From Massilia sp. CF038 (GTDB taxonomy: Bacteria; Pseudomonadota; Gammaproteobacteria; Burkholderiales; Burkholderiaceae_D): a stretch of 64,000 nucleotides of DNA. The position numbers and the translations under genes are program-made. Shown here piece after piece: positions 16,318 to 20,738 of the stretch. Every line of letters begins with the position of its first letter. Within the stretch, counting starts at the first letter, position 1. Under the pieces are notes generated by a model, which saw only the letters and a list, made by a program, of their open reading frames with translations, ran no database searches and had not been told where the DNA came from. The stretch lies in NCBI RefSeq assembly GCF_900129765.1, contig NZ_FQWU01000002.1:248001-312000 (forward strand), in the 5' to 3' direction.

Positions 16318-16456
16318 GCAGCAAGCGGTAGCAGGATGCGTGCCATGCACGAGCGCTCATTTGGACTCGAACGCGCAAGCACACGCACCATGGCGCATCA
16401 TGGCGCACCGGCGTGGTGCAGCGATAAGCGACGATAGCGCAGCACGCCGCAAAGCA

Positions 16457-16541
16457 AATCGCCCTCGCGAAGGCGGGGGGGCCATTCCATGTTACCGAAT
16501 TCGGTGAGGTGGCATGGCCCCCCGCCTGCGCGAGGGCGATG
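16457..16541. repeat. Palindromic element copy 2
   Basis: An 85-base copy of the family. The left end is AAATCGCCCTC instead of CATCGCCCTC, and the G-run is one base longer. The centre CCGAATTCGG is intact. It sits inside the first tandem unit of the 16.4-16.9 kb array. Confidence 0.88.
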
Positions 16542-16653
16542 TTGTTTCAGTGGCCGGTTCGGGCGACGCGGGTGATCTCGTCGCCTGAACCGGCATATAT
16601 CGCATTCCCGGAGTACAAGCAGTAAGCGACGATAGCGCAGCACGCCGCAAAGC

Positions 16654-16682
16654 ACATCGCCCTCGCGAAGGCGGGGGCGATG
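16654..16682. repeat. Palindromic element copy 3, collapsed to one arm
   Basis: Only the left arm CATCGCCCTCGCGAAGGCGG plus GGG and the last six bases GCGATG remain. The centre and most of the right arm, about 57 bases, are missing relative to copy 2, while the flanking tandem unit is intact. This is what deletion within a hairpin during replication would leave. Confidence 0.85.
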
Positions 16683-16795
16683 TTGTTTCAGTGGCCGGTT
16701 CAGGCGACGCGGGTGATCTCGTCGCCTGAACCGGCCTATATCGCATTCCCGGAGTACAAGCAGTAAGCGACGATAGCGCAGCACGCCGCAAAGCA

Positions 16796-16879
16796 CATCG
16801 CCCTCGCGAAGGCGGGGGTCCATTCCATGTTACCGAATTCGGTGAAGTGGAATGGCCCCCCGCCTGCGCGAGGGCGATG
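16796..16879. repeat. Palindromic element copy 4
   Basis: A full 84-base copy in the third tandem unit. The arms pair CGCGAAGGCG on the left with CGCCTGCGCG on the right, so one position is mismatched. The centre CCGAATTCGG is preserved. It ends 93 bases before the end of the oxygenase gene. Confidence 0.88.
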
Positions 16880-16972
16880 TTGTTTCAGTGCCCGGTTCAG
16901 GCGACGCTGATACTAGTCTCGAACGCAAGCGCTAAGCGCGATGTTTCCTGCGATCAATTCCTACTGCATAAA

Positions 16973-17677
16973 TCAGGCCGCGCCGTACAGCACTTCGGCA
17001 CGCTGAAACAGTATCCAGGAAGTGGCAATGTATTTGTCGCCGCTGCGGGCGATATGGCCTTTGTGCGAATGGGTGAAGCCGGCCGGCGCGATGATCAGGC
17101 GCCCCTGCTTTGCTTCGACCTTGCGCTTCTGGTAAAAGAATTCGGTTTCGCCGCCGTCGGCCACGTCGTTCAGGTAGAACTGAAACAGCAGCGCGCGGTG
17201 CAGGCTTTCGCCACTGGCGTTTTGCGGATAGATCTCCGAATGCCAGTGATGGTAGCCGCCCGTCGCTTGCAGGTACTTCTGCACGTTGATTTGGCCGGCG
17301 CGGTAAATCGTGCGCATCAAGTCGCCCAGATACGGCACGCCACATTCGTCAAAATTATCGATGGTCAGCTGTACCGCCTCACCCGTGACAGGGTGCACCA
17401 CCTGCGGCGACATCGCGCCCACCAGCAGCATGCGGTACTTGTTCATGTAGGCCTGCAGGTGCTGCTGCACGGCGGCCATCATCGTGTTCGAGACGTCGTT
17501 CCAGTCCGGATGCAGGCTGATGGTCAGGTCGTAGCTGTCCTTTTTGGTGGTATCGACGCCCTGCCCGGTCTTGCCGCGCATGACCTTGTCGCTGGCGTCA
17601 AAGCGCGCCATGATCTGCTGGCATTGCGATGGCGTTAGCGCGCCATCGTAAATCTCGAGAAAGTCGTCCACAAGCAC
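16973..17677 (-). CDS. 2-oxoglutarate/Fe(II)-dependent oxygenase, prolyl 4-hydroxylase-like
   Basis: A 234-residue double-stranded beta-helix oxygenase. The proximal iron ligands are probably in the HHWHSE segment and the distal His in APAGFTHSHKGH. The C-terminal SGDKYIATSWILF is typical of the 2OG-FeII_Oxy_3 (P4H) group. The motif reads HxE rather than HxD, which some members tolerate. It should hydroxylate a protein or small molecule using 2-oxoglutarate and O2. The start is GTG at 17677, with another GTG two codons later; no strong ribosome site is visible. It follows the small secreted protein gene by 14 bases on the same strand. Confidence 0.8.
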   Translation of the reverse strand: MLVDDFLEIYDGALTPSQCQQIMARFDASDKVMRGKTGQGVDTTKKDSYDLTISLHPDWNDVSNTMMAAVQQHLQAYMNKYRMLLVGAMSPQVVHPVTGEAVQLTIDNFDECGVPYLGDLMRTIYRAGQINVQKYLQATGGYHHWHSEIYPQNASGESLHRALLFQFYLNDVADGGETEFFYQKRKVEAKQGRLIIAPAGFTHSHKGHIARSGDKYIATSWILFQRAEVLYGAA

Positions 17678-17691
17678 GCTGTACTGGCAGC

Positions 17692-18114
17692 TCAGTTGCA
17701 GGCTGGCGGCAGCGCGGCCTTGAAACGGTCGAAGCGGCTGCCAGGCGTTTTATCGTCGCCGGTCATGACCAGCTGTGCGCCGTCAAACACGATCGGGACC
17801 AGCGCTTCGCGCTTCTGGCCTTTGAAGAGCACGTCGATATGGAGCACGCCGTCTTTGTCGAAGTACCATTTACCTTCGAGCGAGGCGAAGCCCTTGGCCT
17901 TGAAGTCGGCCGCTTCAGCACCGCATTTCGGGTACATCCGGTAGACGTGGTCGGCATTGAACTCGATCACATTCCCGGCCGTCCCTTCCGGCAGCTTTTC
18001 CTGCCACGCGCCGGTGAGCCTGGCCTCGTTATTATCCTTGGGCGCGTCGGCCGCAAACGCGGCAGACGCGGCGATCATCAGTGCGGCAGGAATCAGCAGT
18101 GTCGTCAGTTTCAT
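17692..18114 (-). CDS. Hypothetical secreted protein, 140 aa
   Basis: The ATG at 18114 gives a clean Sec signal peptide (MKLTTLLIPAALMIAASAAFA, cleaved before ADAP). The mature part of about 120 residues reads like a small beta-rich periplasmic domain: LTGAWQEKLPEGTAGNVIEF, then GKWYFDKDGVLHIDVLF and LVMTGDDKTPGSRFDRFK. Two cysteines (PKCGAEA and the C-terminal PACN) could form a disulfide. I do not recognise the family. It lies 98 bases downstream of the MNIO partner gene and 14 bases before the oxygenase gene, so it may share either transcript. Confidence 0.75.
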   Translation of the reverse strand: MKLTTLLIPAALMIAASAAFAADAPKDNNEARLTGAWQEKLPEGTAGNVIEFNADHVYRMYPKCGAEAADFKAKGFASLEGKWYFDKDGVLHIDVLFKGQKREALVPIVFDGAQLVMTGDDKTPGSRFDRFKAALPPACN

Positions 18115-18212
18115 TGTGCGCCAGGAGCCCGGCGAAGGGCTCGGAGTTGTCGGGAGTCGCGTGCGGTGACGAGTGTGCCTGAATTTCCGCCTTTCGACAA
18201 CTAAAGCGCCCC

Positions 18213-18749
18213 TCAAGTCGTACGTGTGATCTCGAACAAGTGTGGCAGCCCGGCCGCAATGCGGGTCTGCCATATGCCGCCGGGGTACGGCTGCTGCAGC
18301 GCCTGATCCTGGGCCAGACTATGCAGGACAATGTGAGGATCGGTTTCCCATGTCACTTCGTAGCTATGTGGGTCCCCGTCGCGCACCCGCATCAGCGCCA
18401 GCTCGAACTGCGACACCGACACCACCAGGCTGTCACGATGGGCACCCAGCGACGCCAGAAACGCCAAGGGCTGGTACTCCCGAAAAGGCGACACATTCTG
18501 GCTGCGGATAAAAGACTCCAGGGCCGGCTCGAGCAAACCGCGCTGGCGCAGCAAGGCCATGGTCAGCACGCAGGTACGTTCCAGCACGTACACACGCCAC
18601 AGGAAGATATTCCCGCGCGCCTCTTGCAGGTCGGGCGAGGCCGCCACCTGATGAAAATACGGCGGATCCGCGCGCCCCACCTGGTAATTGGCGCGGATCA
18701 GTCCCAGTAAAATGCGCTGGTGCTGGGCCAGATCGCTCGGGGTTTCCAT
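18213..18749 (-). CDS. MNIO partner protein, DUF2063/HvfC-BufC-like
   Basis: A 178-residue protein that resembles the short form of DUF2063 (HvfC/BufC) proteins: HQRILLGLIRANYQVG at the start, ARGNIFLWRVYVLERTCVL, and a C-terminal EVTWETDPHIVLHSLAQ. Such proteins are the obligate partners of MNIO enzymes in known systems and recruit the precursor peptide. It is shorter than the usual partner of about 250 residues. It starts 2 bases after the MNIO stop, so the two are cotranscribed and probably form a complex. The family assignment rests partly on context. Confidence 0.7.
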   Translation of the reverse strand: METPSDLAQHQRILLGLIRANYQVGRADPPYFHQVAASPDLQEARGNIFLWRVYVLERTCVLTMALLRQRGLLEPALESFIRSQNVSPFREYQPLAFLASLGAHRDSLVVSVSQFELALMRVRDGDPHSYEVTWETDPHIVLHSLAQDQALQQPYPGGIWQTRIAAGLPHLFEITRTT

Positions 18750-18751
18750 GA

Positions 18752-19630
18752 TCAGCCTTGAAAGCGTGCGCGCAGCTGCGCCAGTTCGTGTCCAATGGCG
18801 GCGTGTCCCAGACCGGGCACCGCTTCGGGCATGAATTCATAGACCACCACTTGCGCGCTGGTAGCCACATTGTGGATGGCGTCGTACGCCAGATCGGCAG
18901 TACGTGGCCGCGTCAGGCGCGAATGCACGTCCAGCATGAAACCGTTGTGCATCACACCACACGCCACGTGCAGTTCGCGCACCGCCTCGCCATTGAGCTC
19001 CGCCATGAAAGCGGCGATATTGAGACCGTGATTGTGCTCGTCGCATTCGAGGTTATAGATGTCGAGGATCAGACCGCAGCCAGTGCGCGCTGTCAGCGCA
19101 TTCAGAAAGCCCGCATCGGAATAGGCGCCGGGACAATCTGGAATCACATGCACGATATTCTCGAGTAAAAAGGGAATGCCGTAACGCTGCTGAATTGCCT
19201 CGGTGCGCGCACACACCAGGTCCAGCGCCTGCTCGGTGCGGGGCATGGCCAGCATGATGCCCAGGTGCTGGCCATCGACCTTGGTGTACCCCAGATGCTC
19301 GCTGTGCCAGGCCACGTCCACCTGTTCCATCAAGTCGTCCAGCAAATGCAGATAGGTAGGCGCCCAGCCATCGTGCGAACCAATCGACAGGCTCACCCCA
19401 TGCACGATGATCGGCACCTGCTGGCTGATTTCCTTCAGTTCGGCCAGCACCTCGCGGCTGAGCACAATGGTGTCGCCGTCGACTTCGGCGATCGTCTCCG
19501 GCGTCACCTCGACGTAGTCCACGTGCGCCAGCATCTGCGCCATCAGCGCGGGGTCGCGCCCCTCGTAGCTCACACCCAGACTGATGGCTGGACGTGCGGC
19601 AGCGCTGGGCAATGGGAGCACGGGGCACAT
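18752..19630 (-). CDS. Multinuclear non-heme iron-dependent oxidase (MNIO, DUF692)
   Basis: A 292-residue TIM barrel of the MNIO (DUF692) family. It has the expected metal-ligand positions: IIVHGVSLSIGSHDG, WHSEHLGY, LLENIVHV, LILDIYNLECDEHNHG, ELHVACG and VYEFMPEA. MNIOs use two or three irons to oxidise cysteine, asparagine or aspartate residues in ribosomally made peptides (methanobactin, 3-thiaglutamate, bufferins). The start at 19630 leaves 10 bases after the precursor-like gene; a longer frame from 19684 would overlap it. It is flanked by the peptide gene before and the partner gene after, so a peptide-modifying role is likely. Confidence 0.88.
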   Translation of the reverse strand: MCPVLPLPSAAARPAISLGVSYEGRDPALMAQMLAHVDYVEVTPETIAEVDGDTIVLSREVLAELKEISQQVPIIVHGVSLSIGSHDGWAPTYLHLLDDLMEQVDVAWHSEHLGYTKVDGQHLGIMLAMPRTEQALDLVCARTEAIQQRYGIPFLLENIVHVIPDCPGAYSDAGFLNALTARTGCGLILDIYNLECDEHNHGLNIAAFMAELNGEAVRELHVACGVMHNGFMLDVHSRLTRPRTADLAYDAIHNVATSAQVVVYEFMPEAVPGLGHAAIGHELAQLRARFQG

Positions 19631-19640
19631 GGCGTCTCGC

Positions 19641-19904
19641 TCAGTGGCTGGTGGCGCCAGCGATGGCGTGTTCGACCATTGCACCCTGGATGTTTGGAAT
19701 TTCCATCAGGTGCCGGCTGATGGCCGGGTCGCCGCGCAGAAAGGTCAGGTCAAAACCGGTCAGGCCGCAATTGCATCCGCCCTTAGGCACCATGTGCTTG
19801 ACCGCGATGTCGAGCGCCTTGTGCAGGTCTTCCAGCGTGACGCGCCCTTCATGCACCACAATTTTGACGTGGTCGTTACTGGCTTGAATTTTGTTGGTAA
19901 TCAT
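19641..19904 (-). CDS. Precursor-like peptide of the MNIO cassette, 87 aa
   Basis: An 87-residue protein directly upstream of the MNIO gene. Residues 1-40 look like a folded leader (HVKIVVHEGRVTLEDLHKAL). Residues 41-60 are KGGCNCGLTGFDLTFLRGDP, with cysteines 44 and 46 in a Cys-Asn-Cys motif followed by an Asp/Arg-containing block, the most likely modification site. The tail ends AIAGATSH. It lacks a signal peptide, so unlike bufferins it would stay in the cytoplasm unless processed. A good ribosome site, AAGGGG, lies 6 bases before the ATG. The precursor role is inferred from position, size and the Cys motif. Confidence 0.72.
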   Translation of the reverse strand: MITNKIQASNDHVKIVVHEGRVTLEDLHKALDIAVKHMVPKGGCNCGLTGFDLTFLRGDPAISRHLMEIPNIQGAMVEHAIAGATSH

Positions 19905-20147
19905 GGCAATCCCCTTATGGCCACTTGATGGGCCTGTTTTGAAAAAACGGTTCCCGATATGGAAGCGGCTTCCCGAACCGGAAGAAGAAACCGCAGCTGC
20001 TTGCGAGTCAGTATAGGACGCGGTTTTGGCCGGATGTACACCCTTTGTAACGTTTGCAAAAAAGTTAGAAAAATTCGCGGGAGCACATACCGCAACAGGG
20101 CTAGAATGGCGACAGGTTTCTGTTCAACATCTTCTGGTACACACGCC

Positions 20148-20738
20148 ATGGCGAAAGCAGTGACACGTTTTTTCGGATGGAGCTTGAGCGTTGTGCTGGT
20201 CTGCTTCCTGTGCGCTGCGGCCGTCATCAGCATGGTCGGCCTGACTGACAGCGCCGAAGAGACTGACCTGGCCGTGGTGCCGGGCAACACGGTGCTGCCA
20301 AGCGGTGCCGTCTCGCCGCGATTGAAGGGGCGACTCGATGCGGCGGCGAATCTGTTCCTGCATGGGAAGGTCAAGGCCGTGCTGGTCAGCGGCGGCATTG
20401 GCGCCGAGGGCTTTGACGAAGCCGACGTCATGAAGCGTTATCTGGTCGCACAAGGCATTCCGGGCGCCGCCATCGTAACTGACAACAAAGGTATCAATAC
20501 CTTCGAGACAGCACGCTACACCGCTGCGCTGGTGCGAGAAAAAGGGTATCGGCCCCCCATTGTGGTGACGCAGTTTTTTCACATCGCCCGGATGGAACTG
20601 GCCCTGCAAAAGTTTGGCGTAGCGACAGGTGGCCATGTGCACGCCCGACATTTCGAAGCCCGCGACGTGTATTCGCTGGCGCGAGAAGTGTTTGGCTATG
20701 CCGGCTACGCGTTCAAGCAGCCTGACAGCGTCCGTTGA
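20148..20738 (+). CDS. DUF218 (YdcF/SanA-like) membrane-anchored protein
   Basis: About 196 residues from the ATG at 20148. An N-terminal membrane anchor (FGWSLSVVLVCFLCAAAVISM) is followed by the DUF218 Rossmann-like domain: LAVVPGNTVLPSG, VKAVLVSGGIGAEGFDEADVM and INTFETARYTAAL. The conserved glycine and acidic residues fit the YdcF/SanA group, linked to envelope barrier functions and possibly nucleotide-sugar or cofactor binding. The upstream stretch in the same frame does not look like protein. It is divergent from the MNIO cassette across about 240 bases. Confidence 0.8.
   Translation: MAKAVTRFFGWSLSVVLVCFLCAAAVISMVGLTDSAEETDLAVVPGNTVLPSGAVSPRLKGRLDAAANLFLHGKVKAVLVSGGIGAEGFDEADVMKRYLVAQGIPGAAIVTDNKGINTFETARYTAALVREKGYRPPIVVTQFFHIARMELALQKFGVATGGHVHARHFEARDVYSLAREVFGYAGYAFKQPDSVR

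Follow-up and report, generated by a model that had tools for sequence, protein, structure and literature searches.

What is the role of a small protein with a Cys-Asn-Cys motif, devoid of a signal peptide and encoded directly ahead of an enzyme of the MNIO family? This question is raised by three genes, designated here A, B, and C, in a 64,000 bp stretch of the genome of Massilia sp. CF038 (assembly GCF_900129765.1, contig NZ_FQWU01000002.1, positions 248,001 to 312,000 of the forward strand). The whole stretch is called the window below. The original prediction, made from the letters and a list of open reading frames (ORFs), had recognized an MNIO cassette that could represent a new class of modified peptides. 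The observation is real and conserved, and its interpretation is partly supported: the cassette very probably belongs to a putative class that is published but uncharacterised.

A Conserved Three-Gene Cassette

The ORF coordinates confirmed the predicted layout of three closely spaced genes. A, B, and C all lie on the minus strand in that order, with intergenic gaps of 10 bases (A/B) and 2 bases (B/C) (Table 1). The start of B was taken as the ATG at position 19630, the simplest choice; an alternative GTG at 19684 would overlap A.

Table 1. Coordinates of the cassette, of a neighbouring gene, and of the CPAC-type genes described below (positions without a locus number are those of the window).
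Feature	Position	Strand	Evidence
A, 87-residue precursor-like protein, two Cys (44, 46)	19641-19904	-	ORF, 12 homologous loci, no family match
Presumed core of A, residues 41-60, KGGCNCGLTGFDLTFLRGDP	19725-19784	-	Invariant residues, low pLDDT
Presumed recognition (leader-like) segment of A, residues 12-32, HVKIVVHEGRVTLEDLHKALD	19809-19871	-	Conserved run, predicted strand/helix; role inferred
B, MNIO enzyme (PF05114), 292 aa from ATG	18752-19630	-	Pfam, ligand alignment, own clade
C, partner protein, 178 aa, PME-type 2/TglI-like predicted fold	18213-18749	-	AlphaFold model, structure comparison
2-Oxoglutarate (2OG)-Fe(II) oxygenase (PF13640), neighbour outside the conserved cassette	16973-17677	-	Pfam
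CPAC-type precursor (GCPACTSGFDI), intact	L076 990-1247	-	
CPAC-type precursor (GCPACTSGFDI), intact	L079 999-1256	-	
CPAC-type precursor (GCPACTSGFDI), intact	L082 1221-1478		
CPAC-type precursor (GCPACTSGFDI), intact	L084 1168-1425		
CPAC-type precursor, degraded copies	L080, L086		
Two adjacent CPAC-type precursor matches, then MNIO-partner fusion gene, in a genome of another family	L116 4401-6414		
Further MNIO-like gene at the same locus	L116 2350-3234		By eye

A scan of the contigs of 84,980 species genomes, sensitive to close relatives, recovered A at 10 loci, in Duganella, Massilia, Pseudoduganella, Ramlibacter, and two Acidobacteriota. Three of the 17 genomes searched within the genus contained A, one of them new (G410), which brings the total to 12 loci with the window included. 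The taxonomic samples gave one positive genome among 399 for the order, nine among 294 for the family, one among 349 for the phylum, and one among 347 in the phylum of the Granulicella genome. Apart from G410, these matches corresponded to the window's genome or to loci already present in the large scan. A is rare, and it was not found in the plasmid collection, where the MNIOs showed about 32.7% identity for the top rows.

At all 12 loci, distributed over two phyla, A, B, and C occurred on the same strand and in the same order, and no homologue of A was observed lacking an MNIO at its side. The three-gene arrangement is thus real and conserved. Eleven cassettes were intact; the twelfth, in Massilia sp. 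H-1, was fragmented by frameshifts, and the assembly concerned has a completeness rating of 48%. This copy enters the alignment of A only as far as its early stop and is left out of the alignments and trees of B and C. Among the 294 genomes of the family, a sample that was the same for both searches to judge by its handles and tallies, A (E<=1e-3) and an MNIO of the B clade (E<=1e-30) were present in the same nine genomes with no discordant case, some MNIO at E<=1e-30 being present in 81. The scores of the B clade were 562-604 bits (two pieces of 306 and 228 bits in Massilia sp. H-1) versus 128 bits for the next MNIO. The nine genomes are related and therefore do not represent nine independent events, yet the loci as a whole span the two phyla.

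The distances of A, B, and C correlated across 11 loci (Spearman 0.78-0.84, with none of 2000 permutations as high), a pattern that joint descent alone would also yield. In the midpoint-rooted tree of B, the two Acidobacteriota rows grouped with Ramlibacter (support 87/70), and in a midpoint-rooted tree including the CPAC-type MNIOs they were placed between Ramlibacter and the rest. This nested position of the Acidobacteriota rows suggests that the cassette moved as a unit between lineages.

The Enzyme B and Its Partner C

The DUF692/MNIO identity proposed for B was established by its match to PF05114 (E=3.7e-49, 167.8 bits versus a cut-off of 25). Its metal ligands had been described as intact, which holds for eight out of nine. 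The iron ligands of TglH are His71, His107, Glu151, Asp184, Asn187, His216, Asp229, His231, and Glu258 (PMC10880893). Eight of them align exactly with residues H77, H112, E157, D190, N193, H221, D234, and H236 of B, all invariant in the 11 B proteins. The column of the ninth, Glu258, is occupied by V263 in B, and the bufferin-type MNIOs of the window's genome have a Glu at this column. An invariant glutamate, E265, lies two residues further, in the YEFMPEAVPGLG stretch. E265 is a candidate ninth ligand.

The 11 B proteins form a single clade (100/100), separated by a long branch from 26 other MNIOs (37 rows in total), the latter being part of the matches listed and in some cases trimmed to about 330 residues. 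The best NCBIfam matches of B were the bufferin (BufB) and oxazolin maturases, with 143.9 and 118.5 bits, both below the respective cut-offs of 310 and 360. Its identity with the three other MNIOs of the same genome was 27-33%.

The partner C had been called DUF2063-like, a description that stands for the predicted fold and not for the family signature. Pfam showed no family at E<=1, including PF09836 (DUF2063), and the sole NCBIfam match (E=0.2) is meaningless. The AlphaFold model of C, obtained from 11 homologues, had a predicted local distance difference test score (pLDDT) of 87.5. The best Foldseek matches were 8hi7_A and 8hci_A, from TglHI structures (E=0.02, probability 1.00, template modelling (TM) score 0.52, root-mean-square deviation (rmsd) 7.9). 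With VIA-align, the Z score was 10.8 for 8hci_A (rmsd 7.8, 169 aligned), 10.7 for 8hi7_A, and 7.9 for NGO1945 (3dee; rmsd 4.0, 123 aligned), followed by 4.2 for the next row, with the caution that Z scores up to about 13 can be due to chance for helical folds. The three top rows are clear of the rest and all correspond to known MNIO partners; chain A of 8hci and 8hi7 was assigned to TglI in view of the identity of chain D as the DUF692 protein. The model of C fits a PME-type 2/TglI-like partner with a DUF2063-like fold and no Pfam signature.

The Precursor-Like Protein A

No family matched A in Pfam or NCBIfam at E<=1, and nothing believable was found by searching the PDB sequences, or Pfam and NCBIfam, with A or its profile. 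The N terminus, MITNKIQASNDHVKIVVHEG, contains no signal peptide (judged by reading the sequence), and the protein has two cysteines in total, which bears out the single Cys pair and the absence of a signal peptide noted at the outset. The C terminus, GATSH, carries no cysteine. The Cys-Asn-Cys block is the most conserved part of A: in the alignment of the 12 loci, 16 residues of the segment G42-P60 are invariant (GGCNCGLTGFDxxFxRGDP). Its description as Asp/Arg-rich was overstated, the conserved block holding two Asp and one Arg. Every invariant core residue is encoded by at least two different codons across the loci, and this use of synonymous codons places the conservation at the protein level. 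The codon comparison was confined to the core columns, since ahead of the core the rows of L040 and L041 are out of register. Residues 12-32 constitute a second conserved run in the same alignment.

The structure predicted for A comprises a strand (11-17), a helix (24-38), a loop, a short helix (61-66), and a second strand (72-79), with a pLDDT below 50 in the core loop (residues 41-58). A Foldseek search with this weak model returned no match at E<=0.001, and ferredoxin-like matches weaker than this threshold were disregarded. The prediction is consistent with A being a small scaffold that holds the core loop, the first half being likely the recognition part.

Relationship to Known Systems

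Antoine et al. (2025) described adjamnio-1 precursors, which have no Sec signal and are associated with MNIO cluster #1 and a PME-type 2 partner, the model protein being WP_073215760 from Massilia sp. CF038 (PMC12452194). This naming paper gives neither a chemistry nor a function for adjamnio-1; it states that signal-less precursors correlate with PME-type 2 partners. A shares with adjamnio-1 the absence of a signal, the Cys motif, and a gene position directly ahead of an MNIO, one set apart from other MNIOs in both cases, and the cassette shares with it the PME-type 2 partner and the Massilia representative; no difference is known. One of the four MNIO genes of the window's genome has a signal-less precursor. 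A is in all likelihood adjamnio-1, some doubt being left by the existence of a second signal-less family, the CPAC type, in the same genus. The proposal of a new modified-peptide class was thus not supported, since adjamnio-1 had already been named from this strain. No experimental study of the Cys-Asn-Cys (CNC) family was present among the matches listed, most subscription journals being beyond the reach of the search.

Of the characterised systems, TglA-TglHI (3-thiaglutamate, a pearlin) resembles the cassette by its signal-less substrate, by a partner of similar predicted fold, and by the eight iron ligands. TglA differs by its appended C-terminal Cys, compared to the internal CNC loop of A, and C has 178 residues versus 268-269 for the matched TglHI chain. 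The original prediction had set the cassette apart from bufferins and methanobactin, and both distinctions held. The bufferins and captophorins (BufABC, HvfABC, FonABC) show the same precursor-MNIO-partner order and a Cys-bearing precursor; they possess a Sec signal, a PF09836 partner, and as a rule more Cys. In the present cassette, A has two Cys and lacks a signal, C does not match PF09836, and B scores below the BufB cut-off. The three further MNIO genes of the window's genome lie behind Cys-rich bufferin-like precursors with signal peptides judged by eye. Methanobactin (MbnABC) also associates a signal-less Cys precursor with an MNIO, but B reaches only 41.7 bits on the MbnB model, below its cut-off of 325.

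Proposed Mechanism and Alternative Explanations

We propose that the three genes constitute a self-contained MNIO modification cassette acting on the loop of A, which taken as a whole is the best explanation and a moderately probable one. Its parts differ in strength: the family of B, the linkage of the genes, the conserved loop, and the fold of the partner come from computation, and the remainder of the model is inferred. There is good support for A as a cytoplasmic MNIO substrate, and B is very likely the enzyme that uses it. In this model, C would bind the strand-helix part of A and position the loop GGCNCGLTGFD at the iron cluster of B. The enzyme would then use O2 to oxidise the loop, with one or both Cys as the probable target. 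By precedent, the reaction would be a four-electron oxidation yielding for example a 5-thiooxazole, a change of about -4 Da per Cys. This group corresponds to the loss of 4 H (4 Da) per Lys-Cys motif (PMC12668002) and absorbs near 302-305 nm in other MNIO products (PMC12668002; PMC12452194). A thiooxazole in A is a tentative assignment made by analogy. The product would be a small modified cytoplasmic protein that might bind copper or a different soft metal. It probably stays in the cytoplasm, because A has no signal peptide and no conserved transporter or protease was seen. The metal role is a doubtful guess drawn from the CxC loop and from precedent.

Several points weigh against this proposal, in addition to the cautions attached above to the Z scores of C and to the correlated distances. 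The structure predicted for A has low confidence (pLDDT 57.2, predicted TM score 0.44), and Foldseek showed no match for C at E<=0.001. B is far from the bufferin MNIOs compared (branch of 3.14), so that thiooxazole chemistry need not carry over. No conserved metal gene was seen beside the cassette across the loci examined, in a survey made of ORF lists, tblastn, and a few Pfam scans, with some loci ending soon after the cassette. Finally, the conservation of A extends past the Cys to the GFD and RGDP segments, so that Asn45, Asp52, Asp59, or a Phe could be the target.

It is possible, with a lower but appreciable probability, that B modifies one of these non-Cys residues, for example by hydroxylation or a backbone change, the Cys being metal ligands or structural. 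Residues N45, F51, D52, F55, R57, and D59 are as invariant as the Cys, MNIOs acting on Asp, Asn, and Phe have been published in small MNIO clusters (PMC12452194), and the Glu ligand of B is displaced with respect to both TglH and the bufferin-type MNIOs of the same genome. On the other hand, the CPAC-type family keeps a Cys at the same place, together with G, F/W, and D, but not the Asn. This explanation and the proposed Cys-directed cassette both take A as the substrate, and their odds overlap accordingly.

A could also serve as a scaffold that gives up a small modified amino acid or peptide, in the manner of pearlins, the protein itself not being the product. The best structural matches of C belong to TglHI, which act in pearlin synthesis, and TglA is likewise signal-less (PMC12452194). 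However, the Cys pair of A is internal and not C-terminal, and inspection of the ORF lists around the cassette, without models of those genes, revealed no tglB/E/F/G-like set. We regard such a release as improbable. Still less likely is a role of A as a small protein that regulates B and C or supplies them with metal, with the true substrate elsewhere. The low-confidence prediction of A as a strand-helix/helix-strand protein, rather than a disordered peptide, would agree with this role; against it, the precursor-MNIO-partner order is that of known systems (PMC12452194), the Cys loop is the most constrained part of A, and, apart from Massilia sp. H-1, none of the loci shares any other gene of the window's neighbourhood. 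That the cassette is of the ordinary bufferin (copper-buffer) type and lost its signal peptide is hardly tenable in spite of the best NCBIfam matches of B, given their scores below both cut-offs, the separate clade of B, the lack of a DUF2063 match in C, and the Cys-rich precursors with signal peptides, as judged by eye, that precede each of the three other MNIO genes of the same genome.

A Second Signal-Less Family

Precursors were surveyed at 28 MNIO loci, comprising every non-B match listed for genera g1 and g191 other than the three of the window's genome, which were added. Signal peptides were evaluated by eye and with a crude hydrophobicity score. Bufferin-like precursors were present at most loci, that of L016 being seen by separate inspection of its locus; the CPAC type was present at six, and no precursor could be named at L075, L078, and L090. 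The CPAC-type precursor, found in six genomes of the window's genus, is 86 aa long, signal-less by eye, and contains LGQLGCPACTSGFDIRY. Its GC-x-x-C-x-SGFD block has CxxC in place of the CxC of A. The MNIO and the partner domain are here a single protein of 476-494 aa. The C-terminal domain of this fusion is related to C (hhalign 86.8%, E=4.3e-6), and DUF2063 is below threshold in it (15.9 versus 27.2 bits, in one of two proteins).

The cores of the CPAC and A precursors gave an ungapped profile alignment with E=0.0016 but a probability of 15.8%, and the CPAC-type MNIOs are on the same side of a branch as the B clade versus the 26 others (100/99). A common origin of the two precursors is suggestive. 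A CPAC relative was detected in a further genome of the class (1 of 185; L116 in Table 1); the CPAC-type precursor was not found in the plasmid collection, nor a relative in the viral contigs. The family is possibly among the published adjamnio families, adjamnio-7 being said to carry CxxC (PMC12452194). As a speculative extension, the CNC and CPAC families might be united in a single class of small, folded proteins of the cytoplasm that share a GC-x(1,2)-C-...-GFD loop and are served by divergent MNIOs with a shifted last Glu ligand. They would carry an undescribed modification, and the product would be permanently intracellular with a metal or redox role.

Genes around the Cassette

Urease genes and the 2OG oxygenase are found near the cassette in the window and in Massilia sp. 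H-1. The oxygenase was not retained as a possible second tailoring enzyme, as it was seen at 2 of the 12 loci and was not found at the 10 others examined; of these, the sequence stops about 1 kb past the cassette at L040 and about 3 kb past it at L041. Directly downstream of the cassette and on the same strand, the segment 16973-18114 contains this oxygenase and a protein of 140 aa that by eye has the look of a secreted one. In the interval separating the urease genes from the oxygenase, two copies of a 141-base unit with 97% matches occupy positions 16530-16818, and terminator-like hairpins recur within the unit. A consensus promoter scan of positions 16350-20200 gave one promoter-like site, on the plus strand, which is the number expected by chance. 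Upstream of A, words resembling GGTTCG/GGACC recur by eye in a patchy alignment, and no motif is claimed.

Other genes surround the cassette at other loci. In the Duganella group it is preceded by a regulator, about 880 aa long, whose end is LuxR-like, and an MFS-type transporter is located about 2 kb downstream of the cassette at L039 (both by eye). No transporter, protease, or additional enzyme was seen to accompany the cassette repeatedly across the loci surveyed. Genes on the opposite strand accompany the Ramlibacter cassette (L042 3790-7129), including one for a 622-aa protein resembling by eye a defence-system ATPase. Elsewhere in the window's genome (L111 4130-8268), a fused class D/class C beta-lactamase gene has a divergent BlaR1-class D gene alongside; this fused arrangement is listed for CF038 and a small number of other Oxalobacteraceae strains (PMC5967600).

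Significance

MNIO chemistry has mostly been studied on flexible, often exported peptides. A minimal three-gene cassette, present in two phyla and with a compact, apparently intracellular substrate, provides an easily tested case of an MNIO acting on a small protein, and the conservation analysis names the loop and the residues of A to examine first. The cassette points to an intracellular use of MNIO modification.
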